From positions 1-44,866 of the forward strand of contig JAJZRF010000020.1 of NCBI GenBank assembly GCA_021847425.1: DNA of 44,866 bases, in the 5' to 3' direction. This document shows, in pieces, positions 6,532-31,436 of this stretch (position 1 is its first letter; each line of letters opens with the position of its first letter). Position numbers and translations under genes: made by a program. Source of the stretch: Deltaproteobacteria bacterium (GTDB lineage Bacteria; Desulfobacterota; Desulfobulbia; Desulfobulbales; Desulfurivibrionaceae). The notes beneath the pieces were generated by a model. It was not told the DNA's origin, ran no database searches, and saw only the letters and a list, made by a program, of their open reading frames with translations.

Positions 6532-7725
6532 TTAGGTATCCTTTTTAAAATCCGTGCGTTCGGCGCGAGCCACTTCGGCATACACCTCTTTAAGCGGAAC
6601 GGTGTGTGCGCTTGCCACCCGTTTGCAGTCTTCATACTCCGGGGTCAAGACCTCCCCGGCAGGCGTTGCTATTTTCTTCACCCGCACTGCACCCCAGCGG
6701 GTGGGAACCGTGCCGGCCTCCCGGGGCAGGGTCCAGCGCTGCTCCGGGCGAAAACGCAACCCGATGGCCGTGGTCTCGCTCAGGATGCATTCCTTGGCAG
6801 CCAGGGCCGAAGCCCGGTCGCAGATCACCCGCAGCAGGAAGCCGGGCCGCCCCTTTTTCATCTGGATGGGGATCAGAGCCACGTCCAGGGCGCCCAAGGC
6901 AAAGAGCCGTTCGCTGAGATAGGGAAAGGTTTCCGGCGACCAGTCGTCCAGATGGGTTTCAATAACCTCCACCTCCTGGGGTTCGACCGCGAGCCGGGCG
7001 GTGCCGATAACCAGGCGGAGAAGATTGGGCTGACCATTGGCCAGCTCCTGGCTGCCGGCGCCGTAGCCCACACCGGTCATGGTCATGGACGGCATGGGGC
7101 CATAATCGGTGGCCAGACCCTTGATGATCGCCGCCCCGGTCGGGGTGACCAGCTCCTGGCTCAGTTCGACCCCGTAAACAGGGACACCGTGCAGCAGTTC
7201 GCAGGTTGCGGGCGCGGGCAGGGGCAGCATGCCGTGGGCGCATTGGACCCAGCCGCGCGGCATGGGCAGGGGGGAGCATTGCAGGCTGGTGATGTTCAGG
7301 GCATCAAGGCCGATGGCCGTGCCGACGATATCAATGATAGAATCGATCCCGCCCACCTCATGGAAATGCACCGAATCCACCGGCCTGCCATGCACCTTGG
7401 CCTCGGCCTCGGCCAGCAGGAAAAAGATGGACAGCGCTGTTTCCTTGACCGGTTCCGCGAGGTTGCTTGCGGTGATGAGTTGGCGGATCTCACCCCAGGA
7501 GCGGTGCGGATGGATCTCGGTAGTTTCGATTGCAAGAGAGGTGGCGGCGATGGCCCCGCAACCCTTTTTGCCCACGGCCAGGGTATAGCCGTCAAGATCG
7601 AGCAGTGCCAGTTGTCCGCGCAACTCCGCAAGCGGAAGACCGGCATCCAGCAGGGCGCCAAGGAACATGTCGCCGCTGATTCCGGAAAAACAGTCGATAT
7701 AGGCGATGGTGCGCTGATCAGTCAT
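6532..7725 (-). CDS. larC: nickel pincer cofactor biosynthesis protein LarC
   Basis: A 397-residue LarC protein, recognised from the N-terminus YIDCFSGISGDMFLGALLDAG and the blocks VHFHEVGGIDSIIDIVGTA, ALNITSLQCSPLPMPRGWVQ and THLDDWSPETFPYLSERL. LarC inserts Ni into the pyridinium-dithiocarboxylate cofactor of lactate racemase-like enzymes. Some LarC genes are split and rejoined by frameshifting; here it is one uninterrupted frame. No larA, larB or larE is visible in the window, so the client enzyme lies elsewhere. Its start overlaps the end of the VTT gene by 8 bp. Confidence 0.92.
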   Translation of the reverse strand: MTDQRTIAYIDCFSGISGDMFLGALLDAGLPLAELRGQLALLDLDGYTLAVGKKGCGAIAATSLAIETTEIHPHRSWGEIRQLITASNLAEPVKETALSIFFLLAEAEAKVHGRPVDSVHFHEVGGIDSIIDIVGTAIGLDALNITSLQCSPLPMPRGWVQCAHGMLPLPAPATCELLHGVPVYGVELSQELVTPTGAAIIKGLATDYGPMPSMTMTGVGYGAGSQELANGQPNLLRLVIGTARLAVEPQEVEVIETHLDDWSPETFPYLSERLFALGALDVALIPIQMKKGRPGFLLRVICDRASALAAKECILSETTAIGLRFRPEQRWTLPREAGTVPTRWGAVRVKKIATPAGEVLTPEYEDCKRVASAHTVPLKEVYAEVARAERTDFKKDT

Positions 7726-17057: not shown

Positions 17058-17072
17058 TGTGGAGGTGAGAAA

Positions 17073-21354: not shown

Positions 21355-23487
21355 ATGATACTTCTTCCATTTTTGGATATAGACCAGATGAAAAAGGACG
21401 CTTGGCTGTATGCCAAGGATTGCTGTGAGCGCTGGGATGTTCCCGCCGACGCTCCTGCAGATCTCCGAGATCGACGCGGCCGAGGTCTGCTCACCAAGGA
21501 TGGCTACCGCGTTACGGCTATGGCTCTGAGCCGAGACTTCGGTTGGGGCTACCGTTCGCCCGCGGCGTCCTTTGTTGAGGCCTTGCTTCCTTGGGCCGTT
21601 ATCCTATGGTTCGTTGCACTCAAAATCCCCCATATCGGAGAGATACTGGCCGCCGGCGTCATGATTGCCGTGGCCGTGGCGGCGTTTTCGTCTCAGCTGT
21701 GGGACAAGCCGATGTATGCGCTTCAGCGGATGCGGTGGGCCCTTCTGGTGGTCGTGGTTTCCATCATTGCCGCCGCTCTGGGCAAGGAACTGTTTTCGCC
21801 GGTGGCGGTCGCCGAGATGTCCACCGGAACTACTGCCATGGGCGGATTTTCCAGGGCGCTCCCTGTCATCCTCGCCTTGTTTTTTGCGCTTAATCCTTGG
21901 CGAAAGGCTCGTGCCGAGGAGCGGGAGCGATTGCTTCTGCTTCAGGCCGCAGGCAAAGAAGACGAAGCGGCGGCGGCATACCCCTATATTGCCGAGGCGG
22001 CGACAGCTCGCCGTGCTCAGGCGGCACGGGCCAACGCAGATCAGACGCCGTTTTTTGAGCTGGGCCGAGCGACCGGGATTTGCTCTGAGTTGCTGGATCT
22101 GTACTCACCCGACAAGGGCCTCCCGGTGGGTCTCACCCAGCACGACTCCTCAACCCACTTCCTCACCGTGGGGAAGACAGGCACCGGCAAGACGGCCTGT
22201 ATCATCCGACCGTTTGTGCAACAATGGCTCAAACACCTTTGCGGTGGCCTTTTGCTCCTCGATGGCAAGGGCGACCTTCCGGCCGAATTCTCCGGCACTG
22301 ATGACTACTACGTCATTGAGCCGGGAAAGGTTAAGCTCAACCTGATCGAGGGGTTGTACACCGAGGGTCTTGTAGATGTCCTCACCAGTTACGCAAGCAC
22401 TACCAGCGATACCCATAGCGGCGATCACTTTTGGATCTCCAGCGGCGAGACCATGCTGCGATCCGCGTGCATTCTCTTGGAGCATCGCCCTGACTCGGTG
22501 AAGGCTGAGTATCCCTGGACTCTGGAAGCGGTACACCGAGTAGTCAACCAAGATCCTTACCGGACCAACCTGCTGGCATCATATCGCGAGACGATCGACG
22601 ATCATCCGCAGCGAGCCTACATCGCGTTAGCTATCAATTATTTCACCCTGGAATTTTTAAAGATGCCGCCTAACACCGCTGGCTCGGTGGTGGGAACGGT
22701 CAACTCTTGGCTCGCCCCTCTTATGGGCCACCGTGAGATTTTCGAATGGTGTCGTGCGCCCAAAAGTGACATTGATCCCGCTCAGTGCCTACAGGGTGGA
22801 AGATTCGGGGTCAACTGCCCTCAATATAAATATGGCAGCGCCGGCGCCATGGTCTCGGCACTCATCAAGGCCAGGGTATACCGTGCGATCCTGCAGCGCG
22901 GGTCTGCATGGAAAAGTCTTGTTGGTCAGACCCAAGTCCTGGTCGTGGCCGATGAAGCTCAAGAAGTCATTACTGAAACGGATAGTGCGATGTTCCCTGT
23001 TGGGCGTTCTCTTGGACTGGTTGGACTGATCGGCACTCAATCAGTGGATGAGTTGATCGCCCGCCTCGGGCATGACAAGACTTACGCGCTGCTCAACAAC
23101 TTCCGCAGTTTCGCCTCCTTCCAGTCTTCGAAGCTCACGATGGAGTGGGTGAGTGAGCAGCTCGGCGATGTATTTCGAGCTGACTTCAGTGAGGCAGAGG
23201 GCGTGGACCTCTTTCGTTCTGCTGGCTCACACAACCAACTCCGGCAATTCAAGATCCCGCGCCATCTGGTGGGCGCGGTAGAGGTCTTTGAGGATTTGAA
23301 CGCAAAAGAGAAGGAAAATGAAAAAAGGCGGGTCAAGCCTTTGACCTATAAAGTTGGCCACCTACCGCTGCTCTCGCCGGCGGAGATGAGTCACTTCTTG
23401 AATACGCCATTTCGCGCAATTTTGCAGCTCAATCGGGCTAATGTTGTGCGGCGCGATGTTGTGGACACCACGCCGATTTTTGGTTAA
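21355..23487 (+). CDS. VirD4/TraG-like coupling ATPase
   Basis: 710 residues. The N-terminus carries about four membrane helices (around residues 75-185). Walker A is GKTGTGKT (residues 273-280) and the Walker B region VLVVADEAQ has D533-E534. Late motifs GLIGTQSVDELIARLG and NNFRSFASFQSSK match the TraG/TraD/VirD4 group (TraM-recognition type). It would link the relaxase-DNA complex to a transfer channel. AAGGAGG lies 7 nt upstream of the ATG. No VirB4-like second ATPase is present in the window, so the channel is presumably provided in trans. Confidence 0.88.
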   Translation: MILLPFLDIDQMKKDAWLYAKDCCERWDVPADAPADLRDRRGRGLLTKDGYRVTAMALSRDFGWGYRSPAASFVEALLPWAVILWFVALKIPHIGEILAAGVMIAVAVAAFSSQLWDKPMYALQRMRWALLVVVVSIIAAALGKELFSPVAVAEMSTGTTAMGGFSRALPVILALFFALNPWRKARAEERERLLLLQAAGKEDEAAAAYPYIAEAATARRAQAARANADQTPFFELGRATGICSELLDLYSPDKGLPVGLTQHDSSTHFLTVGKTGTGKTACIIRPFVQQWLKHLCGGLLLLDGKGDLPAEFSGTDDYYVIEPGKVKLNLIEGLYTEGLVDVLTSYASTTSDTHSGDHFWISSGETMLRSACILLEHRPDSVKAEYPWTLEAVHRVVNQDPYRTNLLASYRETIDDHPQRAYIALAINYFTLEFLKMPPNTAGSVVGTVNSWLAPLMGHREIFEWCRAPKSDIDPAQCLQGGRFGVNCPQYKYGSAGAMVSALIKARVYRAILQRGSAWKSLVGQTQVLVVADEAQEVITETDSAMFPVGRSLGLVGLIGTQSVDELIARLGHDKTYALLNNFRSFASFQSSKLTMEWVSEQLGDVFRADFSEAEGVDLFRSAGSHNQLRQFKIPRHLVGAVEVFEDLNAKEKENEKRRVKPLTYKVGHLPLLSPAEMSHFLNTPFRAILQLNRANVVRRDVVDTTPIFG

Positions 23488-24963: not shown

Positions 24964-27900
24964 ATGGCTCGCGAGTCTGTTTTTCATCTGGCGCATAGAC
25001 ACTTCGAAGATGGGGATACTCTCGGGGGTAGTGGTTATGCAATGTATCTTCTCCGGGAAGGAAAAAAATGGGAGCACAAGCGTGACCATCTTGTCGTTTC
25101 CGAGGGATATTATCCCGCCTGGGCAAAGGGGGATGCTGGTAAATTTTGGCGAGCAGTGGATAAATTCGACAATGGGAGGCGGTGGGAAGAATTTAATTTT
25201 TCCGTGGATCATGCACTAAGTGTCGAAGACAGGATGTCGGTGCTTCGTGAATGGCGCGAAAAGATTATCCCGGAAGGGTGTCCATATACTCTTGCCATCC
25301 ATTCCAAGGGCGATTCCGGGCACGAGAACTGGCATTGCCATATCCAATACTACACAGCCAAAGATGATGGCTTGGAGAGGACACCGGAACAGTGGTTCAA
25401 GCGTGCGGCGGCGCCGTACAGGCATCGTGTTACAAAAGAGATGGTGTATCCCCCGCCAGAAGATGGCGGGGCTCGCAAGCTCAAGGAGTATTTTGGGGCT
25501 CGCGGATTTATTTCTAATGCCCGTGAAAGCTGGGCGAAACATGCCAGCAAGTATATGCAGGAACGAGGTTATGGTATTTTTATCGATCACCGCTCCTATA
25601 AGGAGCGTGGAATCGATATGCAGCCCAAAAAACACCTTGGCAAGGTTGCTACTCAAGCGCGACGTGAAGGGGTCGATACCAAGAATGAACTGGCTGGGTA
25701 TTTGCTCTCCGAAAACAAACGGATTACGTACGACAACGGCAACAGAATCATTGCTGATCCATCTGTTGCTTTCGACTATCTTACCTATCACTCCTCGACC
25801 TTCGAGGATAGAGACCTGTTCAAGCTTTTGCATGCCCAGACGGCGGATGAGGATCAGTACTTTCGAGCCCTTGCCGCAGTCAAAACCTCCCCAGAATTGG
25901 TCAAGATTGGTGATCGTTTTACCACGGTCTCGCTTCTTCAGACCGAGGCAAAGATGGTCTCCTGGAGCCAGGAGCTGGCAGAAAAAAATACTCACCATAT
26001 CGACTACAAAAGGGCTCAGCAGATCGCCGAGGCGCGAGGTTTGTCTGACGATCAGAAGCGTGCATTTGAGCATATCTTGCGGAGCGGTGATTCGGTTGCG
26101 GTGACCGGTTTTGCTGGCGCAGGGAAGAGTTATATGTTGTCTGCCGTCCGGCAAGTGTACGAAGAGCAAGGATATCAGCTCCGTGGAACGGCATTGGCCG
26201 GGCAAGCGGCCGCAGGCCTACAGCACTCTTCCGCAATTGAGTCGCGAACATTGCACTCACTCCTCGGTCAGATCGACAGCGGGAAGATCCGGCTTACTCC
26301 GAACGATGTTGTGGTCCTCGATGAGGCAGCGATGGTCGGCACCAGGCAGTATGCCCGGTTGGTCGGAGAGGCCCGCGAAGCTGGCGCGAAGCTTATTCAA
26401 ATAGGCGACAAGGAACAGCTCCAGAGTATCGAGGCCGGCGGAGGGTTTAAGGCAATCACGAGTCGTATAGGGGTTGTCGAACTCGCCGAGATCCGTCGTC
26501 AAAAAGAAGAGTGGGCGAGGGGGGCTACCCAGAACTTCGGCCAGGCCCGGACGCGCGAGGCCTTGACCGAGTATATTGACCGCGGCAAGGTGCATGCAGG
26601 CGAGAACCGTGAAATCGCGATGCGTTCGATGGTGGCTGCTTGGCATGAAGCGCCGGGCGAAAGTAAGATCATGCTGGCCGCCACCCGGGCAGACACAACT
26701 CGGTTGAACGAGTTGGCCCGGGATGTGATGACCGAACAGCTCGGTCCGGATGTCGAACTGGAGACCGAGACCGGCAAACGGTGCTTCGCGGCCGGTGACT
26801 CGGTGATGTTCACTCGAAACGAGTACGACAAGCTTCGTGTCAAAAACGGCACGCGTGGCACGCTGGAGAGCGTGAGCGAGGCCGGCGACATGACGGTGCG
26901 GCTGGCGGCCGAAGACCGCGAGGTGGTGTTCTCGGTGCAGGATTATGGGCACATTGATCATGCCTACGCGACCACTATCCATAAAGCCCAAGGCGCGACC
27001 GCTGATCATTCTTTTGTCTTTGCTGCGCGGTCCATGGACCGCCACAGCACGTACGTGGCCTTGTCGCGGCATCGCGAAGATGCCCACCTGTACTATGACA
27101 GGGAAGAGATCCAAGGCATTCACGACCTGCAAGGGATCTGTAGTAGGAGTCGAGAGAAGGATCTGGCGCTTGACTTCGCGGAAGCGCGGGGGATCGACAT
27201 TGACGACAATAAGCGACGGCAAGAGCAGATTCGCGAATCACTCGACCAGGCGCGAGCATTCGAGTCGCAGACTCGCACCGAAGAGCAGAGGGAGCTGCGA
27301 CCTATCAGCGAGGCGTTGACGCAGGATCTGACGGCGCAGCAGGAAGGCCGGCTCGCCGAGTGGCGTGAGGAGCGTGTAGAGCAACAGCGTCAGGATATGC
27401 TTGCCCAGCACGAAGATAAGTGGCAGTGGCTTCAGGACGACAAGGAAGTGTCGCGGCGAGCCGCTGAGGATCACTGGCAGCAGCAAGACGGATCGAATCA
27501 ATACATCGAGCAGCAGCGTATGGTGGAAGGGTTGAGGGAGCAGGGCCAGGCAAGCCAAGCCCATATCGACCAGATCGACGCGCGGCTGGCCATGACCTCC
27601 CCGCACAGTCCGGATTATGCATACCTCTTAAGCGAACGACTACCCGCAGAGGCGAGGGCGGAAGAGGCGAGGAATCAATACGGTCAGGGTGAGCGCCGAC
27701 TGGAAGAGATGCAGCGAGAGGCGGACCCCACCGGGTACTACAACGAACGAGTGACGGAGATGCGACACGAAGCTGGGCAGATCGAGGGGGAGGTGGAGAA
27801 GGCGCGAGGGGCGGAGTTTGCCGAGCAGTACAAGGCGACGGAACAGCACTATGCCGACCAAGAAAGGCAGCCGATCGCAAAAGAAGAGCGCGAGCAGCTT

Positions 27901-28296
27901 CCATGGCAACCAACCCAAGAGCAACAACAAGAGAAGCAGTTACGGCTATCCGATCAACTTCCCGAACGGGCAGATCGGACACAGCTTGGCCGTGAACAAT
28001 ACGAGGACCAAGGGCAGACCGCTTGGCAGCAAGAGGAGAAGTCACGTCGGATCTCGGATCAGCTTCCGGAGAGAACCAGTCAGGGCGACCAACGCCGACT
28101 GTCGGAGCAGTTGCCAGAGCGAGAAGACCAGACTTTGCAGCCCGGTCGCGAGCAGGAACAGGAGGGGCAAAGCCGGATCTCCGACCAGCTCCCCGAGCGG
28201 GTGGATCAGTTACCTCCGCAGCCGGGCAGTGAGCAACGGGAAGCTCAGGAAAAGCAGCAAGAGGCAACACGGCCGGGATCGAGCCCCACCCGTTAA
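24964..28296 (+). CDS. MOBQ relaxase fused to a RecD-like helicase (TraA-type)
   Basis: 1110 residues. The N-terminal MobA/MobL nuclease has the metal-binding triad H120-x3-H124-x-H126 (HENWHCH) and an N-terminal Tyr-containing segment (GSGYAMYL). A RecD/TraI-type helicase follows: Walker A GFAGAGKS (about 382-389), DEAAMVG, GDKEQLQSIEAGG, then the C-terminal YATTIHKAQGATAD and VALSRHREDAHLY. The last 300 residues are charged coiled coil ending in four degenerate copies of R-x-SDQLPER. The layout is that of Ti-plasmid TraA. It nicks oriT and unwinds the transferred strand. Confidence 0.9.
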   Translation: MARESVFHLAHRHFEDGDTLGGSGYAMYLLREGKKWEHKRDHLVVSEGYYPAWAKGDAGKFWRAVDKFDNGRRWEEFNFSVDHALSVEDRMSVLREWREKIIPEGCPYTLAIHSKGDSGHENWHCHIQYYTAKDDGLERTPEQWFKRAAAPYRHRVTKEMVYPPPEDGGARKLKEYFGARGFISNARESWAKHASKYMQERGYGIFIDHRSYKERGIDMQPKKHLGKVATQARREGVDTKNELAGYLLSENKRITYDNGNRIIADPSVAFDYLTYHSSTFEDRDLFKLLHAQTADEDQYFRALAAVKTSPELVKIGDRFTTVSLLQTEAKMVSWSQELAEKNTHHIDYKRAQQIAEARGLSDDQKRAFEHILRSGDSVAVTGFAGAGKSYMLSAVRQVYEEQGYQLRGTALAGQAAAGLQHSSAIESRTLHSLLGQIDSGKIRLTPNDVVVLDEAAMVGTRQYARLVGEAREAGAKLIQIGDKEQLQSIEAGGGFKAITSRIGVVELAEIRRQKEEWARGATQNFGQARTREALTEYIDRGKVHAGENREIAMRSMVAAWHEAPGESKIMLAATRADTTRLNELARDVMTEQLGPDVELETETGKRCFAAGDSVMFTRNEYDKLRVKNGTRGTLESVSEAGDMTVRLAAEDREVVFSVQDYGHIDHAYATTIHKAQGATADHSFVFAARSMDRHSTYVALSRHREDAHLYYDREEIQGIHDLQGICSRSREKDLALDFAEARGIDIDDNKRRQEQIRESLDQARAFESQTRTEEQRELRPISEALTQDLTAQQEGRLAEWREERVEQQRQDMLAQHEDKWQWLQDDKEVSRRAAEDHWQQQDGSNQYIEQQRMVEGLREQGQASQAHIDQIDARLAMTSPHSPDYAYLLSERLPAEARAEEARNQYGQGERRLEEMQREADPTGYYNERVTEMRHEAGQIEGEVEKARGAEFAEQYKATEQHYADQERQPIAKEEREQLPWQPTQEQQQEKQLRLSDQLPERADRTQLGREQYEDQGQTAWQQEEKSRRISDQLPERTSQGDQRRLSEQLPEREDQTLQPGREQEQEGQSRISDQLPERVDQLPPQPGSEQREAQEKQQEATRPGSSPTR

Positions 28297-28301
28297 CTGC
28301 G

Positions 28302-28325
28302 ACGCATCTTTGATGCGTAGTTTTG
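28302..28325 (+). terminator. possible terminator after the relaxase
   Basis: ACGCATC-ttt-GATGCGT forms a 7-bp stem a few bases past the relaxase stop, followed by AGTTTTGATT. The right arm is also the start of the first iteron-like repeat, so it may have a double role. Confidence 0.5.
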
Positions 28326-28676
28326 ATTAAAAATTACCGATTCCCTCTACAGCCACAATGGTTTAGCTGAGAAGCGTAGTTTTGGCTAAAAAGGGCACTT
28401 TTTGCAACCACAAGGCATTTGCTGCATGCGCACTTCTGGTTAAATCGGCTCTGGAAGACCTGGCCAGGGTGATTCTTGTGTTGGAGAGGAGTCACTGTAG
28501 AGAGAGGGGTTTGGGTGCACACTTTTGATTAAGAAATGTGCTTTAACCTTACAACCACAGAGATTTCGCGACATGCGAAAAATTAACGGCCCTCATGGCA
28601 ACTCGCCCTTTATTCTCATTGGCCTAGGGTAACCTCTTGAGTGAACAGGATGAGGTTATGCGTAGTTTTGGTTAAA
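28312..28676 (+). repeat. iteron-like repeat field (GCGTAGTTTTGRTTAAA)
   Basis: Degenerate copies of GCGTAGTTTTG(A/G)TTAAA in one orientation: 28312-28331 (exact), 28371-28390, 28425-28444 (weaker), near 28513-28532 (weaker), 28657-28676; a further exact 20-bp copy is at 29652-29671. Several copies have a small dyad beside them, for example TAACCTC/GAGGTTA before the copy at 28657, and AGCCA/TGGCT and AACCA/TGGTT bracketing the second and third. No gene lies here. It is a candidate origin of replication or protein-binding array. Confidence 0.6.
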
Positions 28677-28708
28677 TTTGAGGCCGTTGCATTATGTCTC
28701 CTCCCTGC

Positions 28709-29377
28709 TGTCCGTGAATAATAAAGTTGGAAAATCACGATCCTTCAATTGAGGCCCAGTTCCGCCATAATCGTCATTCTGGGAAAATGCCCAGAAAAGT
28801 TAAAGATGGAAAATTCTTCCTCCTCCGGAGAGGCCGGTTGGAAAAATAAAGTTGGGAAGTGGCCGAGAAAATGTCCGAATGCCTCTGGTACCCATAACAG
28901 CCATCTTAGCGGTCCAAAAGTGGCTCCAAAAAGGCTTGTCGATTTCCGAGGGGACGGCCGGTATAAAAATGGGTCACCGCAAGCTGCCACCCTTGGGCAG
29001 CACAGATACGCTCCGCCAATTTATGGGGATCATAGTTTGGGAAAGAATAACCAAAAGCAGTCTTGGCGTGATAGAATATATTTTGCCCGTCAAAAAATAA
29101 CCCCGCCAGAGGCCTTACGGCTGGTCCAGCGGGGAGCAAATACACAAAATCATATTTAATATCATAAGACAATTTGCGTTCATTGTCAACAAATTCAAAA
29201 ACACAAATCCAAAAACACAAATTCAAAAAAAGTGTAGAGAGCAATTAAACTGTCCGGAGTTGTAGCACATGATCTCATTGTTCGTCCGCCATTTCCCAAC
29301 TTTATTTACTATTTTCCAACTATATCTTTCATTTCCCGACTTTATTATCCGTTTTCCAACTTTATTATTCACGGACA
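28709..29377. mobile_element. 669-bp Tn7-like mini-element
   Basis: It has perfect 26-bp terminal inverted repeats starting TGTCCGTGAATAATAAAG (28709-28734; 29352-29377) and a 5-bp target duplication CCTGC (28704-28708; 29378-29382). The right end has four tandem 20-bp sites (29291-29370, each around TTTCCCAACTTTATT). The left end has three dispersed copies (28716, 28794, 28841). Three dispersed left sites plus four packed right sites, AATAAAG-containing boxes, TGT/ACA tips and a 5-bp duplication are the Tn7 family pattern. It has no transposase. Inside is a damaged NYN gene. Confidence 0.88.
28861..29145 (-). pseudogene. truncated, frameshifted NYN-domain nuclease
   Basis: The frame from about 29145 reads LFFDGQNIFYHAKTAFGYSF then PNYDPHKLAERICAAQGWQL and AVTHFYTGRP, the LabA/NYN (PIN-like RNase) start with the DGQN acidic site. 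After FYTGRP one extra base in a GGGG run (28950-28953) shifts the frame; corrected, it continues SEIDKPFWSHFWTAKMAVMG then TRGIRTFSRPL. Homology stops at the left transposon site (28860), so the C-terminal half is absent. No ATG with a ribosome site is seen; a hairpin with a T-run overlaps the start region. Confidence 0.7.
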
Positions 29378-29581
29378 CCTGCTTAACGCTTTTAAGGTGT
29401 TATTTAGGCGCAGCCGGGTTTTCCTGGTATCTTCGACTGCCTCTTTCACTCGCACCGAAACAAGCGCCAACAGATCGAATTCATCTATGCGCTGCTCGTC
29501 GATCAGCCCAATTTTGTGCAAGCCACGAGCGGTCTCGTGCATTTCCTCAAGAATTCTACTTTTCCGTTTCGCCGTTGCCAT
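29369..29581 (-). CDS. small protein whose end is altered by the mini-element
   Basis: 70 residues (MATAKRKSRILEEMHETARG, LHKIGLIDEQRIDEFDLLAL...), a charged helical protein whose N-terminus resembles that of HigA-like antitoxins but lacks an HTH. Start follows GGAGGTGTGTG. The mini-element is inserted at the last codons: now it ends SRCP-stop; removing the element and one target copy gives SREET-stop in the same frame. The protein is therefore probably still functional. No toxin gene stands next to it. Confidence 0.55.
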   Translation of the reverse strand: MATAKRKSRILEEMHETARGLHKIGLIDEQRIDEFDLLALVSVRVKEAVEDTRKTRLRLNNTLKALSRCP

Positions 29582-29651
29582 CACACACCTCCATAATTTC
29601 CCCTGTAGTCAGGGCAGCCGACAATTGAGGCTCACTAATAAGAGAAACAGA

Positions 29652-29671
29652 GATGCGTAGTTTTGATTAAA
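29652..29671 (+). repeat. exact outlying copy of the iteron-like repeat
   Basis: GATGCGTAGTTTTGATTAAA is identical over 20 bp to 28312-28331. Before the mini-element inserted it lay about 670 bp nearer to the main repeat field. Confidence 0.7.
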
Positions 29672-29703
29672 TCTGAGGAAATATGAAATCCCACTTCAAA
29701 AGC

Positions 29704-29728
29704 AAAAAGGCCGGCAGGGCGAACCGGC
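29704..29728 (-). terminator. terminator after higA-like gene
   Basis: On the minus strand GCCGG and CCGGC pair across a 9-nt loop and are followed by CTTTTTGCTTTT. It lies about 20 nt past the antitoxin stop codon. Confidence 0.65.
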
Positions 29729-29746
29729 ACAGGCCGAGCCAGAACG

Positions 29747-30079
29747 CTATTTGTGGAGAGTTGGGGCATGCTCCGTCGGTGCAATATATTGGCGAACCGT
29801 GATCTCTCCTTCTCGCTTGCGGGTTTGGGCGATGTCAAAACTGTTCTGCATGCGCATTAGCGTATCCATTGGCACTCCGAAAGCCTTCTCAATACGCAAA
29901 GCCATCTCGGGCGAAAGCCGGGCACGCTCGTTAAGCAGCGCTGACAAAGCCGCCCGCGTTACGCCCAAAACATGAGCTGCGCCTGTTACCGTTAGGCCAA
30001 GAGGGTCAACAATCTCGTTTTTCACAAACCCACCGGGGTGAGCGGGAGTCTTCATTCTGATGCCTTGCGTGGTGCCCAT
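29747..30079 (-). CDS. higA: HigA-family antitoxin (XRE)
   Basis: 110 residues. PAHPGGFVKNEIVDPLGLTV, GAAHVLGVTRAALSALLNER and ARLSPEMALRIEKAFGVPMD are the classic HigA/VapI pattern, with the HTH at residues about 30-75; MRMQNSFDIAQTRKREGEI completes the domain. The ATG at 30079 is chosen because TAAGGAG lies 6 nt upstream. The tail after VRQYIAPTEH is extra. It follows the toxin by 10 bp. Confidence 0.9.
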   Translation of the reverse strand: MGTTQGIRMKTPAHPGGFVKNEIVDPLGLTVTGAAHVLGVTRAALSALLNERARLSPEMALRIEKAFGVPMDTLMRMQNSFDIAQTRKREGEITVRQYIAPTEHAPTLHK

Positions 30080-30089
30080 GGCCATCTCC

Positions 30090-30380
30090 TTAGTGGTAGT
30101 CTTCATAGTCCAGGTCGATGATTTCGATCATTGCCTGGTCGATCCGAAACGTGAGTCGCCAGTTTTTTGTGACGGACAGGCTCCAGGTGCTTTTTCGGTC
30201 ACCCGCTAACTGGTGCGCTCGCCAACTTGGGATTGTCCGAAGTTCGTTCTCTTGCTCCATGTCTTGAAGAAAAGAGATAATGCGCCGGAGTTTCGGCGCT
30301 ATGGCGGGCTGAATGCCACTCGGGTCATCATCCTCGATGAAGCGGAGCAAACCCTTGTGCAGAACGTTTCTAATTTTCAT
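30090..30380 (-). CDS. higB: HigB-family toxin (RelE fold)
   Basis: 96 residues: MKIRNVLHKGLLRFIEDDDP at the start, LRRIISFLQDMEQENELRTI, and the strongly conserved WSLSVTKNWRLTFRIDQAMI then LDYEDYH. By family it cleaves mRNA on the ribosome. Its ATG lies only 5 nt after the -10 box, so the mRNA is probably leaderless. With higA it forms the right-end stability module of the element. Confidence 0.9.
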   Translation of the reverse strand: MKIRNVLHKGLLRFIEDDDPSGIQPAIAPKLRRIISFLQDMEQENELRTIPSWRAHQLAGDRKSTWSLSVTKNWRLTFRIDQAMIEIIDLDYEDYH

Positions 30381-30440: not shown

Positions 30441-31436
30441 TCACCCCAGCTTTGCCGCCAGGTCTTCCGCCCGCAGGTGGGTGTACCGCTTCAACATTTT
30501 GAGATCCTTGTGACCGGTGATGCTGGCCACTTCCATTATCCCCAGGGTGCCGAGTTCAAAAAGCCGACTGGTTGCTTCATGGCGCAGATCGTGGAAATTG
30601 AGGCCTTCAATTCCGGCTCGCTGGCAGATACGATCAAAGGCCTGGGAGATTCCATCGGCTCGCCGTAAGGCCCACACTCCTCCGTCGATTCGCCGGGGCA
30701 ATCCGTCTAAGAGTTTTAACGCTCGCGGTGAAAGAGGAACAGTGCGAGGTGTGTTGGTTTTGGTTTTTGGGATGTGCCAAGTACGCCGGGCGAGGTTGAT
30801 GTGCTCCCACTGCATAGCTGCAATTTCGCCACGACGGGCAGCCGTTTCCAGGGCGATTATGATGATGTTTCCAATATCATTGCTTTTGGATATCTTGGCT
30901 GTATCGAGTAACCGCATTTCCTCATCATCAATAAGACGGCGATCTCGTCCGGGGGGAAGAGGTGGTTTCTGTACCTGACTGGTAACGATGCCATGAGCGA
31001 GGGGTATGCCCCAGTCAATAACACAATGCTTGAGAACACGACCGAGCAGTCCGAGGTCATGCTTAACGGATTGCGGCGCTGCCCCGGTTTGCAACTGGCG
31101 GTCCCGGTATGCGGCAACGTGAGAGGAGTCCAGGGCAGTCAGGGACAACCCACCAAGGACCTCACTCAGCCGTCGTGCTCGTGAAATTTCACACCGGCCA
31201 CCTTGGGCCAGGCGGGGAAAGACTTCTTTCTGATATCGCTCCAGGGCTGCGCGAACTGTGGTCCGTTGCGCCGTGGTAGAAGGGATAAAGGCCCCCCGGT
31301 CCATGTCAGCCTCAACCTGTCTGGCCCAGACCTTGGCGTCTGCCATGTTGTTGAACGTTTTGGTGATCGTCTTGTGACCGAGTTTGCGAACCTTTGCACG
31401 GATTTGATAAGGTCCTCTTTTCTCAAAAGTTGCCAT
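30441..31436 (-). CDS. tyrosine-type site-specific integrase
   Basis: 331 residues. An N-terminal arm-binding part (YQIRAKVRKLGHKTITKTFN, KVWARQVEADMDRG) is followed by a SAM-like core-binding domain and the catalytic domain with R201, K224, H282-x-x-R285, H309 and Y318 (ETAARRGE, HIPKTKT, FHDLRHEA, ITGHKDL, KRYTHL). All catalytic residues are present. It is transcribed away from attR, which lies about 100 bp upstream. It should integrate and excise the element at tRNA-Arg(CCG). Confidence 0.94.
   Translation of the reverse strand: MATFEKRGPYQIRAKVRKLGHKTITKTFNNMADAKVWARQVEADMDRGAFIPSTTAQRTTVRAALERYQKEVFPRLAQGGRCEISRARRLSEVLGGLSLTALDSSHVAAYRDRQLQTGAAPQSVKHDLGLLGRVLKHCVIDWGIPLAHGIVTSQVQKPPLPPGRDRRLIDDEEMRLLDTAKISKSNDIGNIIIIALETAARRGEIAAMQWEHINLARRTWHIPKTKTNTPRTVPLSPRALKLLDGLPRRIDGGVWALRRADGISQAFDRICQRAGIEGLNFHDLRHEATSRLFELGTLGIMEVASITGHKDLKMLKRYTHLRAEDLAAKLG

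Follow-up and report, generated by a model that had tools for sequence, protein, structure and literature searches.

The question raised by this locus is whether a short stretch lying between perfect inverted repeats, in a contig of 44,866 nucleotides from a deltaproteobacterium (these 44,866 nucleotides are called the window), represents a Tn7-like transposon that lost its genes and was moved by the machinery of another element, and in which form it reached its present site. The coordinates of its parts and surroundings are collected in Table 1, together with those of comparable tns-less elements (mini-elements) from other genomes.

Table 1. Features of the mini-element and its surroundings in the window, and mini-elements with exact 5-bp duplications in other genomes
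Feature	Position	Strand	Length	Remarks
Coupling protein, TraD/TraG-type	21355..23487	+
Relaxase-helicase, TraA/MobA-type	24964..28296	+		Belongs to mobile element carrying the mini-element
Target duplication, left copy	28704..28708		5 bp	CCTGC
Mini-element, window	28709-29377		669 bp	Begins TGT, ends ACA; CCTGC; near relaxase of mobilizable element
Left TIR	28709..28734	+	26 bp	TGT start; 100% complementary to 29352-29377
Left end	28709..28866	+		Three spaced TnsB-type boxes; aligns with left ends of G015, G010, G006
Interior filler	28867..29231			Without recognisable gene
Imperfect hairpin repeat	29092..29144			CCCCGC...GCGGGG; also in G023 and G045
Insertion-sequence end remnant	29232..29275		44 bp	Precedes ISNCY-like transposase ORF in G048
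Right end	29278..29377	-		Four head-to-tail 20-bp TnsB-type boxes
Right TIR	29352..29377	-	26 bp	ACA end
ORF	29372..29581	-	70 aa	Last codons struck by insertion; no Pfam match
Target duplication, right copy	29378..29382		5 bp	CCTGC
Tyrosine recombinase (integrase) of host mobile element	30441..31436	-
Mini-element, G009	L015 6399-7285		887 bp	GCAAC; 24 bp past glmS
Mini-element, Desulfobulbus	L026		352 bp	Exact 5-bp flanks; 24 bp past glmS
Mini-element, Marinobacter pelagius	L083		659 bp	Beside TrbL, VirB8, CagX, TrbI genes
Mini-element, Alcanivorax hongdengensis	L105		182 bp	Near TraX and a resolvase
Mini-element, Nitrosomonas eutropha	L068		2725 bp	Near KfrB, UmuC-like, S24 genes

All the terminal features that the initial annotation had reported, namely the 669-bp span, the perfect tips, the TGT and ACA termini and the CCTGC duplication, were confirmed, as were the four 20-bp sites at one end and the three dispersed sites at the other. 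The right-end units keep a 20-bp register between 29290 and 29369, and the left-end boxes lie at about 28720, 28799 and 28845 (14-nt units at 28722, 28801 and 28847). Termini of TGT...ACA with a 5-bp duplication are of the Tn7 type, and the predicted TnsB sites of ~20 bp, closely set at one end and dispersed at the other, form a Tn7-type array; 5-bp duplications, left and right TnsB arrays and target immunity are described as Tn7 features (PMC11406308). A perfect 26-bp inverted pair no more than 1 kb apart is expected by chance 1.5e-8 times, given the window length and base composition. The box AATAAAGTTGG alone is not rare, because its 13 occurrences in the window at ≤2 mismatches (8.15 expected) were reached in 7 of 100 shuffles; six of these 13 near-matches and all four exact copies (4/4) lie inside the 669 bp.

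The likeness of the internal boxes to those of Tn7, also proposed from the letters alone, was borne out by a plasmid right end reading TGT, 8 nt and AATAAAGT, which places the box at the same 11-nt offset; this end presumably belongs to Tn7, judging by its tip. Like Tn7 of E. coli (TnsABCDE), the mini-element has TGT tips, a 5-bp duplication, four close right and three spaced left boxes, and its relatives use glmS and encode TnsABCD and a TnsE-like protein. It differs from Tn7 in being 669 bp long without recognisable genes, in a box that continues TTGG rather than CTTA, and in units placed 20 bp apart.

No recognisable gene was detected within the 669 bp, which agrees with the claim that no transposase is present. 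The five ORFs of ≥80 aa that overlap the element gave no Pfam match at E ≤ 0.001, and two of the five, compared with NCBIfam, gave none either. An RNA in the interior was rejected after an Rfam scan of positions 28200-29800, which returned no family at E ≤ 1. The tnsB, tnsC and tniQ/tnsD genes of an autonomous Tn7-like element are not encoded, and the element was filed as a non-autonomous derivative because there was no Pfam match in it and no TnsB match in its own genome. Derivation of the interior from the fetched full-length elements described below was rejected, since positions 28870-29284 matched none of them at E ≤ 0.01, the comparison covering parts of G006. Beside the right end, the match of the 44-bp insertion-sequence remnant stops 2 bp short of the stretch homologous to the right end of G015; the ISNCY-like call in G048 comes from a 71-aa fragment (E 8.7e-10, 38 of 250 bits). 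Loss of the interior by a deletion running through an insertion sequence in the cargo would leave such a remnant, which, read in this way, shows that interior DNA was lost at some time.

The DNA search covered 97 genomes (the own genome, 16 others of the same genus and the rest) and revealed matches to the mini-element in 14, including the own genome, four that match at the ends (G006, G009, G010 and G015, all of the same genus) and nine that match in the interior only. The right end is 90-91% identical to those of G015, G006 and the inner one of G010, 83% to that of G009 and 78% to the outer one of G010, and the left end is 71-73% identical to those of G015, G006 and G010. In three of these genomes the homologous ends bound elements at glmS, with the right tip 23 bp beyond the glmS stop: the element of G015 (C13) measures 34,798 bp between tips and has GCTGC on both sides, that of G010 (C17) measures 25,183 bp with a GTAGA duplication, and that of G006 has its ends on two contigs, with GCTGC read on both.

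The elements of G010 and G015 encode tnsA, tnsB, tnsC and tnsD, followed by a 526-aa TnsE-like gene. Their tnsD genes match PF15978 at E 7.1e-105 and 1.4e-101, and the TnsE-like genes match PF18623 (TnsE C-terminal) at E 1.1e-3 and 1.6e-5, both below the curated cut-off; the TnsE-like protein was matched in three of 257 genomes of the class (G006, G010 and G015), and by sequence against PDB at E ≤ 1 it had no match. In G006, tnsC, tnsD and the TnsE-like gene are present, tnsB is cut by a contig edge, and no tnsA was seen in the element, the sole PF08722 match of that genome (27 bits) belonging to a 912-aa frame of a different contig. The tnsD of G006 C12 is split into two overlapping pieces that differ in frame (L163 3112-4994), which probably reflects a frameshift or an assembly error. 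The TnsB of G010 aligns with that of E. coli Tn7 (7pik) at E 2.4e-103 over 635 residues. A search with a single TnsB protein gave matches in five of the 97 genomes, three at 94-100% identity (the query's genome included) and two at 26-27%, and a 10-row TnsB profile, from whose alignment L025 was excluded for its three stop codons, matched five of 12 chosen genomes. The genome of G009 (88% complete) gave no TnsB match.

Homologous ends thus bound elements with TnsABC and TnsD (tnsA in G010 and G015), and because of these tns genes, the TnsB match and the box offset, the ends were assigned to the canonical Tn7 group rather than the IS21 type. The Tn7-like interpretation of the initial annotation is supported by these same-genus elements at glmS. 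Its further expectation of full-length elements with tnsABC and identical tips held for the tns elements, with tnsA in G010 and G015 only, but not for the tips, which are homologous and differ at 2 to 6 of 22 nt.

The own genome (2.7 Mb, 81% complete, and absence statements apply to that portion) carries a single copy of the mini-element, so a multicopy MITE in it was rejected. The claim that no tns gene lies nearby extends to the whole assembly as far as TnsB is concerned, since no TnsB match was found anywhere in it; one TnsA-type match, from a 917-aa frame of contig C6, scores 25.7 bits and stays below its cut-off of 26.5. Directly after the own glmS comes a frame that we take from its sequence to be tatC-like, with no tip nearby, and the attachment site was therefore judged empty; the mini-element itself lies near a relaxase gene, away from glmS. 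No copies were found in plasmids at the DNA level (E ≤ 0.01), and no exact match to the 22-nt tip was found in viral contigs. The absence of other copies, named beforehand as a refutation, applies to the own genome and not elsewhere, where homologous ends and other mini-elements were found. The label of a non-autonomous Tn7-like MITE is upheld in its Tn7-like part, and the element is short, non-coding and bounded by inverted tips and a target duplication, as MITEs are; it does not extend to a multicopy family moved in trans, as there is one own copy and the mini-elements elsewhere are similar, not identical.

The location inside a mobilizable element was likewise correct, with a TraA-type relaxase, a coupling protein and an integrase in the surroundings. 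The ORF struck by the insertion was matched in 31 of 257 class genomes, 13 (own included) in its N-terminal part and 18 in residues 28-68, and because the two parts match separate genome sets it was regarded as a fusion gene, with an N-terminus that we assume from its sequence to be HTH-antitoxin-like and a C-terminus presumably ribbon-helix-helix-like. When the flanks are joined with one CCTGC, the frame ends in ...LKALSREET*, and homologues end in nearly the same place (...LKQLGVEGA* and ...LNELGRRSV*); a continuous frame at the site was observed in all 10 fetched homologous stretches, from 10 of the 18 genomes. The empty site seen in these proteins, a few residues long, is consistent with a 5-bp duplication. 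At the nucleotide level, no empty site of the exact insertion was found, and no right-flank match spans the site. The nearest right-flank matches are copies of an antitoxin-like gene (G000 C102 and G009 C201) whose similarity breaks off 97 bp from the edge of the element, and stretches of the flank further to the right are matched in G015, G012 and G014. Also in these surroundings, a HigB-type toxin gene and an HTH antitoxin gene adjoin the integrase on the minus strand (29747-30380). A 19-bp repeat of the ATGCGTAGTTTTGATTAAA type (≤4 mismatches) occurs on the plus strand at 28313, 28372, 28426, 28658 and 29653, flanking the end of the relaxase gene and extending beyond the mini-element, with one minus-strand copy at 17058; these repeats are perhaps iteron-like.

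Searching the genome collection for two boxes in the 20-bp register yielded 89 stretches; in 69 of them a TGT tip stands at the expected offset, and 36 contain a glmS-like gene (33 of 86 when the three from the same genus are set aside), while a TnsB, C, D or E homologue is encoded at 24 of 90 loci (the 89 and one viral contig, in stretches of ≤8 kb). The viral locus L110 (3480-3860 of a 99.9-kb contig) has AATAAAGTCGGTAAATAGAT arrays without a TGT tip. With L001-L007 omitted as repeats of other loci, the sequence covered contains 16 inward-facing tip pairs that lie 120-7900 bp apart; six have identical 5-bp flanks, two agree in four of five bases and eight in fewer (ten of the 16 without an exact duplication), and the six exact pairs compare with ~0.016 expected (16/1024, pairs taken as independent). 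The six mini-elements with exact duplications belong to the window, to G009 of the same genus and to four other bacteria (Table 1), and the rarity that had been claimed is therefore not upheld. A TnsB-profile match was found in one of the six host genomes, that of L083 (92.6 bits). As a raw count, two of the six lie at glmS and four near plasmid or conjugation genes, these surroundings being clearest at the window and L083 and weaker at L105 and L068. TnsD recognises glmS and TnsE conjugating DNA (PMC11406308), and the two destinations match these known targets as if the mini-elements had been moved by a helper Tn7.

The mini-elements of the window and of G009 have no interior in common and may accordingly have arisen by separate deletions instead of belonging to a single MITE family. 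In G009, the interior carries a toxin-antitoxin-like pair, the toxin by a YafQ match below cut-off and its partner by eye, and an additional inner left tip was observed at 6613. In the Desulfobulbus MAG, two tns-less mini-elements of 352 and 332 bp stand in tandem behind glmS with one CTACC between them (L026 2428-3116); their interiors are alike by eye, and the second copy has four of five flank bases. Of nine candidates inspected, this second copy, L040, L027 and L024 were not counted for want of an exact duplication, and L024 has no proper second tip.

Among the other explanations, decay in place deserves the most weight. A full Tn7-like element would have inserted here and lost its interior, and the mini form would never have moved, an account that we consider quite possible although we lean away from it. 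The insertion-sequence remnant abutting the right end, the single copy in the own genome and the lack of an interior shared with the G009 mini-element agree with it. Against it speaks the recurrence of similar mini-elements: six of the 16 tip pairs have exact 5-bp flanks, and glmS is the site of two of these six. The alike interiors of the L026 tandem also fit movement of the small form better. A MITE of another family with several end repeats (IS21, IS481 or Tn552/Tn5053 type) is very improbable. TG/CA ends with several repeats are a feature of IS21-type elements too, but in three same-genus genomes the homologous ends enclose tnsBCD elements at glmS, for which reason an IS21-type MITE was rejected. 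The relatives' proteins reach 17.3 bits against a cut-off of 160 for IS21 and 17.4 against 224 for IS481, far short of either, and no istA/istB or IS481 transposase was found between matching ends.

Captured Tn7 ends might also have been retained for the target immunity of their carrier, given that a Tn7 copy already in place hinders further Tn7 insertion close by (PMC11406308) and that both end arrays are intact with no gene remaining; against this stands the presence of one copy only, and we think it unlikely. A chance arrangement of AT-rich repeats, for which the lack of enrichment of the box at two mismatches might be cited, is refuted by the perfect tips, the duplication and the homologous ends in four same-genus genomes, and its probability is practically nil.

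The mini-element is, in our judgement, very probably a non-autonomous member of the TnsABCD(E) Tn7-like family of the host's genus, mobilised in trans. Its own genes would have been lost by internal deletion, leaving the insertion-sequence end. TnsB of a helper would bind both box arrays, TnsA and TnsB would excise the element, and TnsC with a selector would insert it with a 5-bp stagger. The selector would more likely have been TnsE than TnsD, because the element sits not at glmS but in the 3' end of a small gene, close to a mobilizable element's relaxase; the site lies in mobile DNA with a relaxase as TnsE-type targeting would have it, although the TnsE match of the relatives is weak. The helper may since have gone from the genome, may lie in the missing 19%, or may never have been resident. 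We favour, with some reserve, the view that shrinkage preceded the move to the present site, which would make this a true mini-transposon. Points against the favoured reading as a whole are the single copy in the own genome, the absence of an empty site at the nucleotide level, the left-end identity of 71-73%, the 78% of the outer right end of G010, the weak TnsE match (sub-cut-off in Pfam, none in PDB), the separate interiors of this mini-element and that of G009, and the ten of 16 tip pairs that show no exact duplication.

Laboratory mini-Tn7 vectors also consist of both ends without tns genes and are moved by a helper in trans, and they are man-made, whereas the mini-element described here is natural. 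Natural tns-less mini-Tn7s are not named in the titles and abstract openings among the matches listed from the open-licence literature, an earlier mention being possible. Prokaryotic MITEs as described in a review (PMC10969869) are likewise short and non-coding with inverted tips and no transposase, and the mini-element differs from them in being single copy in its own genome; in the accessible portions of that review, Tn7 is named twice, for attTn7 targeting and in one reference. A survey of Tn7-like elements (PMC8649781) starts, according to its available text, from tnsB, and would therefore be blind to tns-less elements.

It is tentatively suggested that transposase-less mini-Tn7s form a regular, overlooked class that lives on resident Tn7-like machinery and uses both of its routes, with glmS as safe harbour and conjugative DNA as vehicle, that carries at most a small module as cargo, such as the toxin-antitoxin-like genes of G009, and that may protect a carrier plasmid by target immunity. 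Should such elements be common, the DNA moved by Tn7-like machinery, both at glmS and on plasmids, would exceed what has been counted, and each mini-element offers a compact natural end set for its TnsB group.

The elements of G015, G010 and G006 share homologous ends, box spacing and genus with the mini-element; they differ from it in their tns genes, their cargo and their location at glmS, and also in length, which is 25.2 kb in G010 and 34.8 kb in G015, where one contig holds both ends. The cargo at the right end differs among them (L012 and L016), with AAA and PAPS-reductase-like genes in G015 and ORC-CDC6-like and PRTase-CE genes in G006. At glmS in G010 C17, two right ends of equal orientation lie 150 bp apart (L013 1222 and 1372); the GTAGA duplication pairs the left end with the outer of the two, and this arrangement resembles the nested or adjacent elements that give several ends in the part of the survey available (PMC8649781).
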